Positions 10,341 through 22,585 of a stretch of DNA of 22,585 nucleotides are shown piece after piece (the stretch's first letter is position 1; each line of letters starts with the position of its first letter). The stretch is from a virus. The translations under genes and the position numbers were made by a program. The DNA is taken from IMG/VR virus record IMGVR_UViG_3300042731_002579, positions 1 through 22,585 of that record; one strand, 5' to 3'. The notes under the pieces were generated by a model. That model saw nothing but the letters and a program-made list of their open reading frames with translations, made no database searches and was not told where the DNA came from.

Positions 10341-11438
10341 TCAGTTACTATAATAGAAATTACCAGCTCCACGGACACGAACTCGTTCAATAATATCATC
10401 ATTAGTTGCTACTCCGAACCGTCGTCTTATCTTATATCCGCCACGTTCTGCGCTTGCTACAGAGAAGTGCATTGGATCCCAAGGTTTATTCCAATTACCA
10501 CCCCAACCGAGACCATGTTTGGCTGCAATATCAGAAATATTTAAAGGCAAATCACACTGGAAATCCCCACCTCTTGTTGATCTTGGATTCCATCCTCTTG
10601 GTGGACCACTGGCGCTATAACCATTTGGAACGTATGCATTAATATCAATCGCCGCTCCCATTGAATGAAAACTCGCTCGTGTAGAATTTCTAGCAGAACG
10701 TTGGCTATATCCATATATCTTTTTAATTACATATCCAGTCGCTTCTAGATCAGCCACAAATGCTTGAAAATTGCTTGCAAAAATAGCAGCTACAGTATAT
10801 TCCAATCCATTTGAAGTTCTAAGCGTAATAAGACCTTCTGCATCTAAATTGATTGATCCTTGCGATCCAGCTGTGGATGTTGATACATCAAATGGTAATA
10901 CTTCTACTAATTCGCCTTGAGCTAATTTTTGATTATTATATTCAGTAGAAACTTTTCGATTAAATACTCCGTTCCAATCGTCATCAATATCAGGTAAAGT
11001 AATAATCAATCTTGCAGTAATATTATTTCTACCTTTAAAACTATCATAGGACAAAACCATTTCATCGTAATAAGCATTATCTTTCAGAAAAGCAGCAACA
11101 TCAAAAAGTTTAGCATTATCTTCTTCACCTCTAGAATTTACAGCTTTATAAACAACAGTCTTACCCTTTAATTTTAAGTCATTTAAACTTTTAGGTGTGA
11201 TTGTTTCATTTGGTCCTGGACGGTAAACAGATTCAGCAACCTGAAGTGATACGCCTTTTAATTCTTCGCTATTATCATAGATGATTTGAAGAATAGTTCC
11301 ATGCACATACAAATATTTTGCAAGTTGTTTTTTAGCTTTATCTTCTCTTAAGAAATTTAAATTCGTGGGATCTTCGGTTCCTAAAAACTTAGAAATAGAT
11401 ACGTTATCATTTAGTTTTGTTTTTGCTGTAATTGGCAT
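10341..11438 (-). CDS. Virion protein with C-terminal M15 (VanY/DD-peptidase-like) domain
   Basis: This is a 365-residue protein. The C-terminal 130 residues form a zinc peptidase domain of family M15: SFHSMGAAIDIN at 256-267 supplies H258 and D265, and WDPMHF at 320-325 supplies catalytic D321 and zinc ligand H324. All the expected residues are present, so activity on peptidoglycan stem peptides is likely (DD-carboxypeptidase or endopeptidase; the exact bond is not readable). The N-terminal 230 residues are unrecognised. They are rich in charged and beta-prone sequence and may anchor the enzyme in the hub or spike. It lies between the beta-helix needle gene (7 nt away) and gp25, so it is more likely a virion-associated enzyme acting during DNA injection than a holin-partnered endolysin. 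No signal peptide or holin is visible nearby. Confidence 0.85.
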   Translation of the reverse strand: MPITAKTKLNDNVSISKFLGTEDPTNLNFLREDKAKKQLAKYLYVHGTILQIIYDNSEELKGVSLQVAESVYRPGPNETITPKSLNDLKLKGKTVVYKAVNSRGEEDNAKLFDVAAFLKDNAYYDEMVLSYDSFKGRNNITARLIITLPDIDDDWNGVFNRKVSTEYNNQKLAQGELVEVLPFDVSTSTAGSQGSINLDAEGLITLRTSNGLEYTVAAIFASNFQAFVADLEATGYVIKKIYGYSQRSARNSTRASFHSMGAAIDINAYVPNGYSASGPPRGWNPRSTRGGDFQCDLPLNISDIAAKHGLGWGGNWNKPWDPMHFSVASAERGGYKIRRRFGVATNDDIIERVRVRGAGNFYYSN

Positions 11439-12848: not shown

Positions 12849-14357
12849 TTATGATCCTTGTCTATTAAATCCAGCGAGCTCTTCTCTTGTTAATGGAGCT
12901 CTGTTTGCTGGACTATAACCAGCAATATTAGATTTGCCAAAAGTATTCTTAATATATTGCGGTACTCTAAAATAAGGCTCTTGCCCGCCATCGAGCTGTC
13001 CCGCTCCAAACACTTGTATTCCTGGTCTAGCTCTATATATTGCTTTCAATACCTGTTCTAATTTTCTCATTTGCCACTGTCCTGGTGGTCCATCTGCTGC
13101 AATATGAATCAATATTGATCTTTTTCTATGTTCTGAAGGTTCCGCCGCAGATGGAATATCTAGCTCTAATGGTCTTCCACGCATCAATAACCCATGTTGT
13201 TGGATAAACAAGTGAGGTGCATATCCTGTTCCACGACCTTCAACATATGATTCATGCCATGTTTCAATTGGAATAAACTCATCTGTACCATATCCGCCGT
13301 TATCTGCGGCTATGACAACTTCTGTAACTTCTCTCTGCAAGTTAGCAACTTCATTGGCTAATACATTTGTATCTTCTACTTCTTGGAAGTTATTTTTATC
13401 ATATGGATCAGTATCAGCTTCTCTCCAAGTATTTAAGAATCTATCAGTTCTTGTAACTGGAATATCTAAAGTAACTGGAGCCGGTGGTTCAGCATTTGTT
13501 TTAACTCTATTATCAATACTAGAAATAACATCTTCTAATTCATTTTGAGGTTTGTCTGAATATTTTTGTAAGATACCAGCAGCTTTTGCTACGTCTTCTC
13601 CAACCACACCAGTTTTTATAATATCTTGAATATCCTTAGGATCCAGTGTTTGTATTACATCACCAATCTTTGCAACAGAATTTAATTTATTTCGCGCTGG
13701 AGAAAAGCTTTCTTCAATAACATTTTCTAAAAGAGCATCAAAACCAAAATTAATCTTATTATTTACACCATTAATTCCATTTGCGATCGCTGATTCTAAT
13801 TCTTTAATTGAGCTAAGAATACCTTTAGTTGATCCAAGAACATCTCCAACAACATTATCTATGAGTGATTCATCAAACTCAAAAGTAGTGTCTATATTAG
13901 ATTTTACAAGACTTTTAATGGCATCCGATGATTCGGTAGTTACAGATTCAAATGTTTTTGCTAATGCCTGTGGATGTGATAAAGTAATTGCAACTTTCTT
14001 TTGTTTCTTTGTAGAAGTAAAATCATTTCCAGTAATTGTTTTTAAATCATCTTTATTCGCATCCGGAACTGGTTTTTCTAAACTTGTCGACGCAGATTTA
14101 TCTACTTTTGCAATACCTACTTTACCAGTAATATTTGATGGAATTGATTCTGCTAATCCACTGATAACATCAAATTCGCTTTGAGCAAGATTTTTTATTC
14201 CACCACTTACATCATTCGCGGCTTTATATAATTGTGTAGTCGCCGCTTCAGCCTTTTCAACTAATTCATACGCAGCACCGCCAAGCTTTGATTTATTAAA
14301 ACTTCTTTCTAAGCCTCTTAAGCCTGATATTATTTTATCTTTAGGGTCAACCGCCAT
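12849..14357 (-). CDS. Hub-associated protein with C-terminal amidase (PGRP)-like domain
   Basis: This is a 502-residue protein. Residues 1-340 are mainly helical and low in recognisable motifs (for example YELVEKAEAATTQLYKAAND and SIKELESAIANGINGVNNKI). Residues about 345-475 resemble the amidase_2/PGRP fold: GYAPHLFIQQHGLLMRGRPL at 379-397 matches the usual 'gYHfvI..dG.iy.gRp', and EHRKRSILIHIAADGPPGQWQM at 409-430 matches 'N..siGI...G...Q'. The first zinc histidine of the fold is normally in a 'HHT' strand. Here that strand reads VVIAAD, so zinc binding may be lost. The domain may therefore bind peptidoglycan rather than cut it. It lies between the lysozyme and needle genes, which suggests a spike or hub component. 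The fold call is by eye and moderate. Confidence 0.6.
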   Translation of the reverse strand: MAVDPKDKIISGLRGLERSFNKSKLGGAAYELVEKAEAATTQLYKAANDVSGGIKNLAQSEFDVISGLAESIPSNITGKVGIAKVDKSASTSLEKPVPDANKDDLKTITGNDFTSTKKQKKVAITLSHPQALAKTFESVTTESSDAIKSLVKSNIDTTFEFDESLIDNVVGDVLGSTKGILSSIKELESAIANGINGVNNKINFGFDALLENVIEESFSPARNKLNSVAKIGDVIQTLDPKDIQDIIKTGVVGEDVAKAAGILQKYSDKPQNELEDVISSIDNRVKTNAEPPAPVTLDIPVTRTDRFLNTWREADTDPYDKNNFQEVEDTNVLANEVANLQREVTEVVIAADNGGYGTDEFIPIETWHESYVEGRGTGYAPHLFIQQHGLLMRGRPLELDIPSAAEPSEHRKRSILIHIAADGPPGQWQMRKLEQVLKAIYRARPGIQVFGAGQLDGGQEPYFRVPQYIKNTFGKSNIAGYSPANRAPLTREELAGFNRQGS

Positions 14358-19489: not shown

Positions 19490-20074
19490 ATGTCAAACTT
19501 ATTTAAAAATCTAGAACTAGAAGCATTCAGAGCTGGTATTACTCCTCGAACACGTGAGTCGAGAGATTGGTTTCGTCGTAAGGCTCAAAGGCTACGCCGA
19601 GTCAATCGTAATCAGTTGATGAAAGAAGAGCCAGTAGAACTCAGTAATCGTAGAATTATTGGCTCAATGCAAATGTTTTTCTATGATCCAAAACTAAAGA
19701 ATGAATTACCTTTCTATGATGCTTTTCCATTGGTGATTGTTCTAGGTCCAGCTCAAGGTGGATTTCTAGGTTTAAATTTACATTATTTGCCACCAACACT
19801 CAGAGCTAAATTTCTTGATGCATTACTAGATGTAACAAATAATAAAAGCTATGATGAATCTACAAAGTTTGATATTACATATAGTATGCTAAAAAGAGCA
19901 ATGAAATATAGATATTTCAAGCCTTGTATCAAACACTATTTAAATAAGAATGTAAGAAGTAGATTTGCAACAGTACCAGCTCCTGAATGGGAAATTGCCA
20001 CATTTTTACCAACTGCAGATTGGCAGAAGGCAAGTGCAAGTCAAGTTTATTCTGATTCCAGAAGGAAAATCTAA
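19490..20074 (+). CDS. Conserved T4-like structural-region protein, function unknown
   Basis: This is a 194-residue protein. I do not recognise a named function. Its N-terminus is strongly basic (RTRESRDWFRRKAQRLRRVNRNQ). A core follows with the segments GSMQMFFYDPKLKNELPFYDAFPLVIVL, GGFLGLNLHYLPPTLRAKFLDALLD, FDITYSML and YFKPCIKHYLNKNVRSRFATVPAPEWEIATFLP, and it ends VYSDSRRKI. I recall proteins with the 'FyYDPK.k..LPyYD.FPLvi....gGFlGlNlHYLpp' pattern from T4-like marine phages next to head and tail genes, annotated only as hypothetical or structural. No signal peptide or membrane segment is seen. No Shine-Dalgarno sequence is evident before the start. The stop overlaps the next start as TAATG, so it is co-translated with the tube protein. 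The basic N-terminus suggests nucleic acid or capsid contact, which is inference. Confidence 0.85.
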   Translation: MSNLFKNLELEAFRAGITPRTRESRDWFRRKAQRLRRVNRNQLMKEEPVELSNRRIIGSMQMFFYDPKLKNELPFYDAFPLVIVLGPAQGGFLGLNLHYLPPTLRAKFLDALLDVTNNKSYDESTKFDITYSMLKRAMKYRYFKPCIKHYLNKNVRSRFATVPAPEWEIATFLPTADWQKASASQVYSDSRRKI

Positions 20075-20808
20075 TGGTCCAGTCTATTGATCAGTTCAAA
20101 AGCTTAATTAATAATAAGAATGGATTAGTTAGATCTAATTTATTTAGAGTAAAGTTGCCATCACTTCCTGGTGCTTCGTCAGAGGAAATGAATATTTTAT
20201 GCAAAGATATTCAACTACCCGGTCGACAAATTCTTACAAATGAACGTCAGATTGGAATGCAGAATGTAAAAGTGCCATATGGTTATGCTGTGCAAGATGT
20301 AAGTATGACATTTCATGTATTGAATGACTATGGTGTAAAAGAATATTTTGAGACTTGGCAGAACCTTGCGGTAAATCAGAACAGATACGAAGTTGGTTAC
20401 CAGAAGGGTGTCGGGGGTTACGCACGTCAGGTAGAGATCGAGCAATTTCGAAAAGTGAAGAGACTACCACGGCGATTTACTAACGAATTTAGATCTGAAA
20501 CCGGACTAAAACAATTCTTGCCAAAACTAAGTGATTTTGAAATTGTTCAAGATGTGTTTGGATTACAAGATCAACTAAACGATCTAGTAATATACAAATG
20601 TAAATTGATTGATGCGTATCCAACTGGTCTTAACGCTATTCAATTGAATAATGAACTAGATGGTGTTGTAGAGTTAAACATTCAAATGTCTTATACAAAT
20701 TGGGAAACACCTTTTGTATTATCGCCATCTAATATTAAAGATGCAATATCAACAAAAATTAGTTCAACAATCGTTGGATTCGTGGATGAATTAAACCCAT
20801 TTACTTAA
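20074..20808 (+). CDS. Tail-tube family protein (gp19/gp54-like; tube or tube initiator)
   Basis: This is a 244-residue protein. The N-terminal half (SIDQFKSLINNKNGLVRSNLFRVKLP, NILCKDIQLPGRQI, NVKVPYGYAVQDVSMTFHVLNDYGVKEYFETWQN) fits the T4 gp19 tail-tube superfamily. The C-terminal strands YKCKLIDAYPTGLNAIQLNNELDGVVELNIQMSYTNWE complete it. Residues about 108-165 form an extra Arg/Gly/Lys-rich stretch not expected in a plain tube subunit. Position just before gp26 and the tape measure, rather than beside a sheath gene, favours the tube initiator (gp54 role) over the major tube protein (gp19), but this is not decisive. AAGGA precedes the start, which overlaps the upstream stop. Confidence 0.72.
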   Translation: MVQSIDQFKSLINNKNGLVRSNLFRVKLPSLPGASSEEMNILCKDIQLPGRQILTNERQIGMQNVKVPYGYAVQDVSMTFHVLNDYGVKEYFETWQNLAVNQNRYEVGYQKGVGGYARQVEIEQFRKVKRLPRRFTNEFRSETGLKQFLPKLSDFEIVQDVFGLQDQLNDLVIYKCKLIDAYPTGLNAIQLNNELDGVVELNIQMSYTNWETPFVLSPSNIKDAISTKISSTIVGFVDELNPFT

Positions 20809-20828: not shown

Positions 20829-21533
20829 ATGGCATTACCTCAGATTAATGATATACCAAAGTATGAATTGACTATTCCATCAACACAAAAAACAATAAGG
20901 TTTAGACCGTTTTTAGTAAAGGAACAAAAAATTCTTTTGATGGCTCTGGAAACTCAGGACCAAAAGCAGATTTTAAATGCTGTACTAGACACAATGAGAT
21001 CTTGTATTATTGAAGATATTAAGTTGAGTAATCTTACCACCTTTGATGTAGAATATATCTTTACAAAAATTAGAACCAAAGCGGTAGGTGAAACTTCTAA
21101 GATTGCTCTTGCATGTACAGAGTGCGACGAGCAGAATGAACTTGAAATCAACTTAGATTCAATTAACCTTGAAGTAAAGAATGGCGATAAGAAAATAAAG
21201 CTGAATGATAATTATACAATTCAATTAAAATATCCTACGTATAACGATGTAGTAAATAGCGAGTTGAGTTTTGAGACAGCAACAGAACAACTTTATAATA
21301 CTTTGATTACATGTTTAGATAAACTTATCACAGAAGAAGAACAAATAGAATTTAAAGAACAACCAAAAAAAGACATTGAAGATTTTTTAGAAAGTCTAAC
21401 TGGCGAACAAATGCAATTGATTATGAATTTTGTAGAAAATATTCCTACACTAAAATATGAAGGAGAATTTGTTTGTAGCTCTTGTAATGCTAATAATGTT
21501 TACAAACTAGAAGGAATGCAGGATTTTTTTTAA
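20829..21533 (+). CDS. gp26: Baseplate hub assembly protein gp26 (T4_baseplate family)
   Basis: This is a 234-residue protein (T4 gp26 is 208). The opening (LPQINDIPKYELTIPSTQKTIRFRPFLVKEQKILLMALET) and the segment FDVEYIFTKIRTKAVGETSKIALACTECDEQNELEINL are characteristic of the T4 gp26-like baseplate family. CxxC pairs at C96/C99 and C216/C219 (VCSSCNANN) could form one zinc site. AAGGA lies upstream at 20812-20816, 12 nt from the start codon, a long spacing. The reading frame ends GAT TTT TTT TAA inside a run of eight T. A frame without its own start continues in -1 directly after, so a second, longer product (299 residues) is likely. gp26 acts in hub assembly and is probably non-structural or of low copy. 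Confidence 0.87.
   Translation: MALPQINDIPKYELTIPSTQKTIRFRPFLVKEQKILLMALETQDQKQILNAVLDTMRSCIIEDIKLSNLTTFDVEYIFTKIRTKAVGETSKIALACTECDEQNELEINLDSINLEVKNGDKKIKLNDNYTIQLKYPTYNDVVNSELSFETATEQLYNTLITCLDKLITEEEQIEFKEQPKKDIEDFLESLTGEQMQLIMNFVENIPTLKYEGEFVCSSCNANNVYKLEGMQDFF
21524..21531 (+). promoter_or_regulatory. Probable -1 frameshift (or transcriptional slippage) site, T8
   Basis: Eight consecutive T (GA-T8-AA) form the last codons of gp26, with the in-frame TAA using the eighth T. Slipping -1 on the tandem TTT codons leads to TTA-ATA-TCT and into the downstream frame, which has no start codon at its 5' end. The same tract could also act by RNA polymerase slippage. Confidence 0.65.
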
Positions 21534-21727
21534 TATCTCTCTCACATGATACATTAGCGAATTATTATCAATCTAATTATCAGCTAATGCAAAATCATAA
21601 GTACTCGTTAAAAGATTTAGATTATATGATACCATGGGAGAGAGAAATTTATTTAAGCATGTTGATTGACGAGCTTAAACAACAAAAAGAAGAAATGCAG
21701 AGGACACAAATGAGTGGATCACTATAA
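21530..21727 (+). CDS. -1 frame extension of gp26 (tail assembly chaperone-like, GT-type)
   Basis: The frame is open from 21497 to the stop at 21725-21727 and contains no ATG, GTG or TTG before an ATG at 21587. Entered by -1 shift from the T8 tract, it adds 65 residues after QDFF: LISLSHDTLANYYQSNYQLM, then QNHKYSLKDLDYMIPWEREIYLSM and a basic/acidic helical end (LIDELKQQKEEMQR). The part before the ATG (SHDTLANYYQSNYQL) looks protein-like and, as I recall, has relatives in marine T4-like phages, so starting at 21587 (46 residues, no ribosome binding site) would cut a conserved piece. It could be the counterpart of T4 gp51 or a T domain that binds the tape measure. Its stop overlaps the next start (TAATG). 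Confidence 0.68.
   Translation, partial: LISLSHDTLANYYQSNYQLMQNHKYSLKDLDYMIPWEREIYLSMLIDELKQQKEEMQRTQMSGSL
21552..21589 (+). promoter_or_regulatory. Inverted repeat downstream of the slippery tract
   Basis: CATTAGC at 21552-21558 is perfectly complementary to GCTAATG at 21583-21589, leaving a 24-nt AT-rich loop. The 3' arm contains the only internal ATG of the extension frame (21587-21589). The spacing from the T8 tract (20 nt) is longer than usual for a frameshift stimulator. The stem is only 7 bp and could be chance. Confidence 0.35.
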
Positions 21728-22585
21728 TGTCATCACTAGCAGAGATTAATAAAGAGCTTCAAAAGCAATCAGCAGAGTTATCTGATGTAAAAGAAAATTT
21801 AGCTGCTCAACTAAAAGCAGAGATAGCCGCGCAGAAGAAAGAAGAGCGGCTGTCAGGACGAAGAGAAGAAGCTCGTAGAGAAGCTCAACGAAAATCTCCT
21901 AGAGGGTTTAAAGAAGGTTTCACTCAAGGCGTAGGTCTTGGTGGTGCTAGTGGAATGGTTGATGGATTCCTTAGGGGATTCTTTGGTGCGGGGACTGGAA
22001 TTTTAGCTGCCATTCTTGGTTCTGTTGGTTTAGCTGCTGGTAAACTCGTAAAAGGAACATTGATTGTAGGACTACTATCCACCTTTGGTGAAAAGGCCAT
22101 AAAAGCTTTATTTGATAAATTAGATGGTACTGCTTTAGATTTAAATTTTACAAAAGAACAAGAAGATGCATTTGCTAAAAATGCAACTGATGGTTTAATG
22201 GGATACTTTCTAACAGGGTTAGTATTTAGAAATCCTTTAATTAAGTTAGGTGCTGGTGTTGTTGCGTTCTATAAAGATGAAGTTTTAGGCGCAATTTATA
22301 AATTGTTTGGTGTTGAAGAAACAAGTATTGGTTCTGCTAGAGATGGCACAGTTCTTAAATATAAAAATATATTTGGTCAAGGTACAATAGATCTGCCTAA
22401 AATATCTGAGACTATGGAAACCGGCATTATTGCAGTTGTAACAGGATTTCTTTTGTTCATTACTAAAAAAGTAACTAATATGGTGACTTGGCTATTGACA
22501 GGCGGTCAAAGTAGAACTGAGAAAAAATTTAATAAAATCTTAGCTGACCAGGAAAAGAAATTTAATAAACAACTTGATGATTTAG
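21727..22585 (+). CDS. Probable tail tape-measure protein (N-terminal part)
   Basis: The start overlaps the stop of the preceding frame (TAATG), and 286 residues are visible before the window ends, with no stop. Residues about 1-58 are a charged coiled coil (EINKELQKQSAELSDVKENL, then KKEERLSGRREEARREAQRK). Three hydrophobic Gly/Ala-rich segments follow (near 78-100, 158-180 and 238-255), and the visible end turns to coiled coil again (KKFNKILADQEKKFNKQL). Coiled coils with embedded membrane-like segments, placed directly after the assembly-chaperone region, are the usual marks of a tape measure. In T4 the corresponding protein is gp29. A membrane-active hub protein is the alternative. No family signature is certain. 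Confidence 0.6.
   Translation, partial: MSSLAEINKELQKQSAELSDVKENLAAQLKAEIAAQKKEERLSGRREEARREAQRKSPRGFKEGFTQGVGLGGASGMVDGFLRGFFGAGTGILAAILGSVGLAAGKLVKGTLIVGLLSTFGEKAIKALFDKLDGTALDLNFTKEQEDAFAKNATDGLMGYFLTGLVFRNPLIKLGAGVVAFYKDEVLGAIYKLFGVEETSIGSARDGTVLKYKNIFGQGTIDLPKISETMETGIIAVVTGFLLFITKKVTNMVTWLLTGGQSRTEKKFNKILADQEKKFNKQLDDL

Follow-up and report, generated by a model that had tools for sequence, protein, structure and literature searches.

The stretch of DNA analysed here, called the window, is a 22.6-kb IMG/VR virus record from a T4-like phage, and its nearest relatives are marine. We consider it very probable that positions 20829–21727 of the window encode a pair of tail assembly chaperones of the lambda G/GT type, made by −1 frameshifting at the end of the gp26 gene. 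The signals, their phase and the coding potential of the second frame were conserved, both parts were homologous to T4 gp26 and gp51, and the N-terminal domain was predicted to be chaperone-like. As the preliminary description had stated, gp26 ends with eight T (positions 21524–21531) followed by AA, the TAA stop lying directly after two TTT codons (CAG GAT TTT TTT TAA). After the shift the −1 frame reads TTA ATA TCT CTC and continues for 65 codons, up to a TAA which shares the sequence TAATG with the ATG of the following open reading frame (ORF) at position 21727. The fused product, of 234 plus 65 residues, has the 299 residues given earlier. Upstream of the shift point the −1 frame was open for 11 codons only, and it contained no ATG, GTG or TTG ahead of its conserved core.

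The homologue set comprised 102 gp26 loci (numbered with the prefix L), represented by 85 sequences at less than 80% identity. It included cyanophages, the pelagiphage Mosig, the vibriophage nt-1, Acidovorax phage ACP17, Stenotrophomonas phage Yut2 and an Aeromonas phage. An in-frame T_TTT_TTN heptamer was present near the end of gp26 in 83 of the 85 representatives, as compared to 13 of 18,609 codon positions in the gp26 bodies. The variants were TTTTTTC (47 sequences), TTTTTTT (32) and TTTTTTA (4). The codon ahead of the heptamer always ended with T although the encoded residue differed (D, S, N, A or G), and four homologues changed FF to FL yet retained the six T. The 0-frame stop was located zero or one codon past the heptamer in 81 of the 83 sequences; in L088 and Mosig it was three or eight codons off, and the phase of the T tract was still kept. 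A gp51-like −1 frame without T_TTT_TTN was retained in the Ackermannviridae (Kuttervirus, Taipeivirus) and in Vibrio phage K493. Loci lacking this heptamer were L025 (3290–3500), L122 (3270–3480) and L024 (3140–3370), with the sequences ATT TTC ATT TAA and CTT TTC AAG TAATG.

These alignments bear on two other explanations of the split frame. A run of eight T is prone to errors and the window is an IMG/VR virus record, which could point to a sequencing or assembly error having split a single ORF. This was rejected as having practically no chance of being correct, and is refuted by the homologues: the same phase was found at more than 80 distinct loci, including the isolate genomes P-SSM2, S-WAM1, Mosig, nt-1 and ACP17, and many loci have T6C, not T8. 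The eight T of the window might also allow slippage of the RNA polymerase, rather than of the ribosome, to join the two frames. The run consists of just six T in 51 of the 83 homologues, a length which is usually too short for polymerase slippage, and the codon phase of the heptamer, together with the Shine-Dalgarno (SD)-like element described below, suits ribosomal slippage. Polymerase slippage was therefore also rejected, as highly improbable.

The −1 frame itself behaved as a coding sequence. It matched the PHROG family phrog_634 (gp51) with an E value of 8.9e-24, as well as the final 46 positions of phrog_150 (gp26), and the joined chain of 299 residues covered positions 5 to 281 of the 282 of phrog_150. 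With the window matching PF12322 (E 3.6e-55) and phrog_150 (2.3e-60), and hhalign giving 98.6% for T4 gp26, both parts belong, as judged by sequence homology, to the T4 gp26/gp51 family (PF12322, phrog_150, phrog_634). When the window was compared with close relatives, changes in the −1 frame fell mostly on third codon positions, with a non-synonymous divergence (pN) of 0.05–0.08 and a synonymous divergence (pS) of 0.65–0.84. The ratio of non-synonymous to synonymous rates (dN/dS) was 0.056 between the window and L009, and L014/L015 showed no amino-acid change at all in this frame. These figures show purifying selection on the −1 frame.

It could be argued that the −1 frame (the T frame) specifies a separate small protein, which ribosomes would make through translational coupling or by reinitiating past the gp26 stop; this is what the annotation of a cyanophage "gp51" implies. 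A TAATG or a nearby ATG does exist in the −1 frame of nt-1, S-CRM01 and K493, and a stand-alone gp51 is annotated in records. Sixteen of the 83 representatives, the window among them, had no ATG, GTG or TTG before the core. In addition, the phase of the T tract was maintained in L088 and Mosig despite their distant stops, the SD-like element at 7–9 nucleotides before the heptamer is too far from any start, and T4 gp51 holds both parts in one chain. We regard a separate T protein as very unlikely. The first ATG of the −1 frame in the window, at position 21587, lies inside the conserved core without a Shine-Dalgarno sequence, in agreement with what had been noted before, and independent initiation there was rejected; the resulting 46-residue ORF is not credible as a stand-alone gene. 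Public records such as L004, L005, L003, L025 and L122 either list the T frame as a gene in its own right, named "baseplate hub assembly catalyst" and given an arbitrary start, or omit it.

The region upstream of the heptamer showed a second conserved signal. An SD-like motif, GGAGG or GAAGG, was present 7–9 nucleotides 5′ of the heptamer in most representatives. The mean pairing energy with the anti-SD sequence, for the 9-mer ending 6–8 nucleotides before the heptamer, was about −6.7 kcal/mol (background −0.16, standard deviation 2.1), and an energy of −4 was reached at that offset by 86% of the representatives compared to 6.7% elsewhere. The element encodes an L-E-G motif, in which the glutamate codons were GAG rather than GAA in a ratio of 41:16, against 517:1325 in the gene bodies (Fisher p 1.9e-11). 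This codon choice indicates that selection acts on the nucleotides. A downstream RNA structure was, in general, weak at best, with mean z values of −1.22 to −1.82 (controls −0.02 to −0.62), and the count of generic hairpins did not exceed that of one control window (25/83 against 27/83). A clade of P-SSM2-like phages, comprising 16 loci (L002, L058, L063, L069, L092 and 11 more), displayed an 11-bp hairpin starting 5 nucleotides past the heptamer. In this alignment 92.6% of the cells paired, as compared to at most 48% in slid controls, a percentage which is biased upward because the sequences had been selected for forming nine or more of the 11 pairs. Better evidence comes from one pair altered on both sides in six sequences (compensatory UA, GC and AU). 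The clade hairpin is likely a frameshift stimulator; it was absent from the window.

This arrangement resembles the E. coli dnaX cassette, in which the stimulatory SD sequence occupies a similar position. Shared are an SD-like element about 10 nucleotides before a slippery heptamer and, in one clade of the phages, the hairpin 5 nucleotides downstream; the phage heptamer is U-rich whereas that of dnaX is A-rich, and the genes are unrelated. On balance we favor the idea that T4-like phages outside the Tevenvirinae, marine and other, carry a conserved dnaX-like cassette made of the SD-like element, the U-rich heptamer and, in one clade, the hairpin, and that this cassette would adjust how much short form is made relative to the long one. 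No earlier description of the SD-like element or of the clade hairpin was found, the work of Vladimirov et al. (2022) being represented here by its title and by papers citing it.

The predicted structure provided information on the function. The AlphaFold model of gp26 had a mean confidence (pLDDT) of 87. For its first 86 residues or so, the best VIA match was the HK97 gp13 tail assembly chaperone (2ob9, Z 7.2 over 85 aligned residues), followed by 3fgx and YqbN 3klu (both Z 6.9), 5ir0 (Z 4.0) and further entries at 2.4 or less, all Z values falling short of the 8 below which the tool advises caution. We take 3klu and 3fgx to be phage tail-chaperone-like proteins. Searches of the PDB by sequence gave no matches. 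The gp26 N-terminal domain is thus predicted to have a tail-assembly-chaperone-like fold. The gene order would also suit chaperones. After the minus-strand baseplate genes, the window carries plus-strand genes for gp4-like, gp2-like (DNA end protector) and gp54-like proteins, then gp26 and a long ORF. The gene located 5′ of gp26 matched the tail tube family phrog_45, and the gene located 3′ resembles a tape measure gene in size and hydrophobicity, with profile support in the relative L034 only. In L034 the ORF after the −1 frame matched the tape-measure profile phrog_794 (E 1.6e-9), and in the close relative L007 the complete version of this gene encodes 630 residues. From this size, its hydrophobic stretches and the L034 match, the gene following the −1 frame is probably that of the tape measure protein.

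A real frameshift might still produce baseplate hub proteins functionally unrelated to the G/GT chaperones. T4 genetics calls gp26 and gp51 hub assembly proteins, and a hub location of gp26 has been reported (PMC3004832). Against this, the solved structures closest to the N-domain model are tail assembly chaperones, the gene order matches, gp51 is required yet missing from the final particle (PMC3004832), and Vladimirov et al. (2022), to judge from its title and the papers citing it, assigns the gp26/gp51 proteins to the tail assembly chaperones. We find the hub reading unlikely.

In addition to the low Z values, several observations weigh against a frameshifted chaperone pair. The downstream protein of the window, cut off by the window end, matched no tape-measure profile, and the downstream RNA structure of the window was weak, beginning about 15 nucleotides after the heptamer. 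The model of the T4-type gp51 brought back no tail chaperones in the comparison with the PDB, which does not by itself exclude the fold. The alignment of homologues, proposed earlier as a check, retained the T tract and the −1 phase, but the absence of a start was a mixed property: in 38 of the 83 homologues the −1 frame contained an ATG ahead of the core, and some of them could therefore also reinitiate. The frameshift and the lambda G/GT-like layout remain strongly supported by the conserved heptamer, the SD-like element, the purifying selection and the fold match.

As in lambda gpG/gpGT and P2 E/E′ (Xu, Hendrix and Duda, 2004), a short protein and a −1 extension without its own start are encoded here, between a tube-like gene and a probable tape measure gene. 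The likeness is one of layout, and no sequence similarity is claimed. The window differs from both by its T_TTT_TTN heptamer, by the SD-like stimulator upstream, and by about 150 more residues with CxxC motifs after the chaperone-like N-domain. The CxxC motifs of the window gp26 are paired (zinc-ribbon-like), partly common to T4 gp26, and lost in P-SSM2-type cyanophages.

Compared to phage T4, the short form of the window is homologous to gp26 and the whole fusion to gp51. The two T4 proteins both match PF12322 and each other (BLASTP E 2e-6); gp51, a single ORF, covers both parts of phrog_150 (13–280), whereas gp26 covers the N part only (14–235). On this sequence evidence T4 gp26 and gp51 can be considered paralogues, the counterparts of the short and long form. 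Reportedly, Vladimirov and colleagues likewise saw T4 genes 26 and 51 as the short and long forms, with other T4-like groups using frameshifting. T4 differs in having two divergent genes without a slippery tract, gp26 ending with TTC TTT GAG TTA CTA TAA before gp25; in T4 relatives the two genes are likewise divergent and gp26, lacking the tract, runs into gp25. A tree of the N-domain separated three well-supported groups, the frameshift forms, the T4-type gp26 and the T4-type gp51. Its root was unplaced, and for this reason no ancestral state is claimed. The predicted T4-type gp51 showed a strand and helix order similar to that of gp26, plus three C-terminal helices which would fit the T domain. 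In Vibrio phage VB_VaC_TDDLMA (L027, 2477–3166), a single ORF of 229 residues weakly matched gp26 and the T domain, and is possibly an in-frame fusion.

The preliminary description had named classical T4 as an exception to such frameshifts, and the frameshift, if real, as a link from T4-like hub assembly genes to the general tail-chaperone system; a view of T4-like phages as an unexplained exception is outdated. A 2016 review described G-T frameshifting as conserved "except T4" (PMC5009743). As its title indicates, the article of Vladimirov, Gautam and Davidson (Virology 2022, pmid 34826709) has since established which proteins are the tail assembly chaperones of T4-like phages; the link is therefore not new. 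According to papers citing it, some T4-like phages do without frameshifting and have a short gene alongside a fused long one (PMC10885494), and polyT −1 slippery signals exist in TAC-N genes, those of the short form, in T4-like phages (PMC12846349). A Klebsiella phage record already labels gp26 and gp51 "tape measure chaperone". The window is a true further example of this known system. Sullivan et al. (2010) had observed, without explanation, that the cyanophage and vibriophage "gp51" is about 200 residues short (PMC3037559). On the present reading, these proteins look truncated because gp26 would provide the missing part through frameshifting.

We propose the following model for the window (Table 1). 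Most ribosomes would terminate at the TAA at 21531 and release gp26 (TAC-N), whereas a minority would slip by −1 on T_TTT_TTT, probably assisted by the upstream AGAAGGA, and read 65 further codons to give the gp26–gp51 fusion (TAC-NC). If lambda is a guide, the N-domain would coat the product of the adjacent gene, the probable tape measure protein, and the tail tube or its initiator would be recruited by the C-terminal domain. For this phage, we infer the occurrence of the shift, its rate and the binding partners.

Table 1. Features of the gp26 region of the window.
Feature	Position	Strand	Remarks
gp54-like tail-tube-fold protein, directly 5′ of gp26	20074–20808	+	phrog_45 tail tube, E 3.7e-28
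gp26 / TAC-N short form, 234 aa	20829–21533	+	PF12322, phrog_150; first ~86 residues predicted chaperone-like fold
Shine-Dalgarno-like AGAAGGA, presumed frameshift stimulator	21509–21515	+	8 nt 5′ of the heptamer; anti-SD energy, GAG enrichment
Slippery heptamer T_TTT_TTT, putative −1 shift site	21524–21530	+	within T8 at 21524–21531
0-frame TAA terminating the short form	21531–21533	+	immediately 3′ of the heptamer
−1 frame, 65-residue C-terminal (T / gp51-like) domain of the long form	21530–21727	+	no start of its own; TAA at 21725–21727
Probable tape measure protein, N-terminal part	21727–22584	+	begins in TAATG

Elsewhere in the window, the minus strand at 10341–11438 and 12849–14357 encodes two further proteins. 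One belongs to the baseplate region, has a C-terminal stretch resembling an endolysin (phrog_1768) and adjoins a gp5-like hub gene; the other, a neighbour of 502 residues, matched no PHROG family at E 0.001. It appears that the cell-wall enzyme is separate from the spike.

Hundreds of phage records give two genes, or miss one, where there is probably one gene extended by recoding, and many of them need a joined coding sequence. The SD-like element offers a simple handle to measure how phages set the stoichiometry of their chaperones. If the dnaX-like cassette is confirmed, it would control the proportion of the two forms, which T4 sets by expressing two genes.
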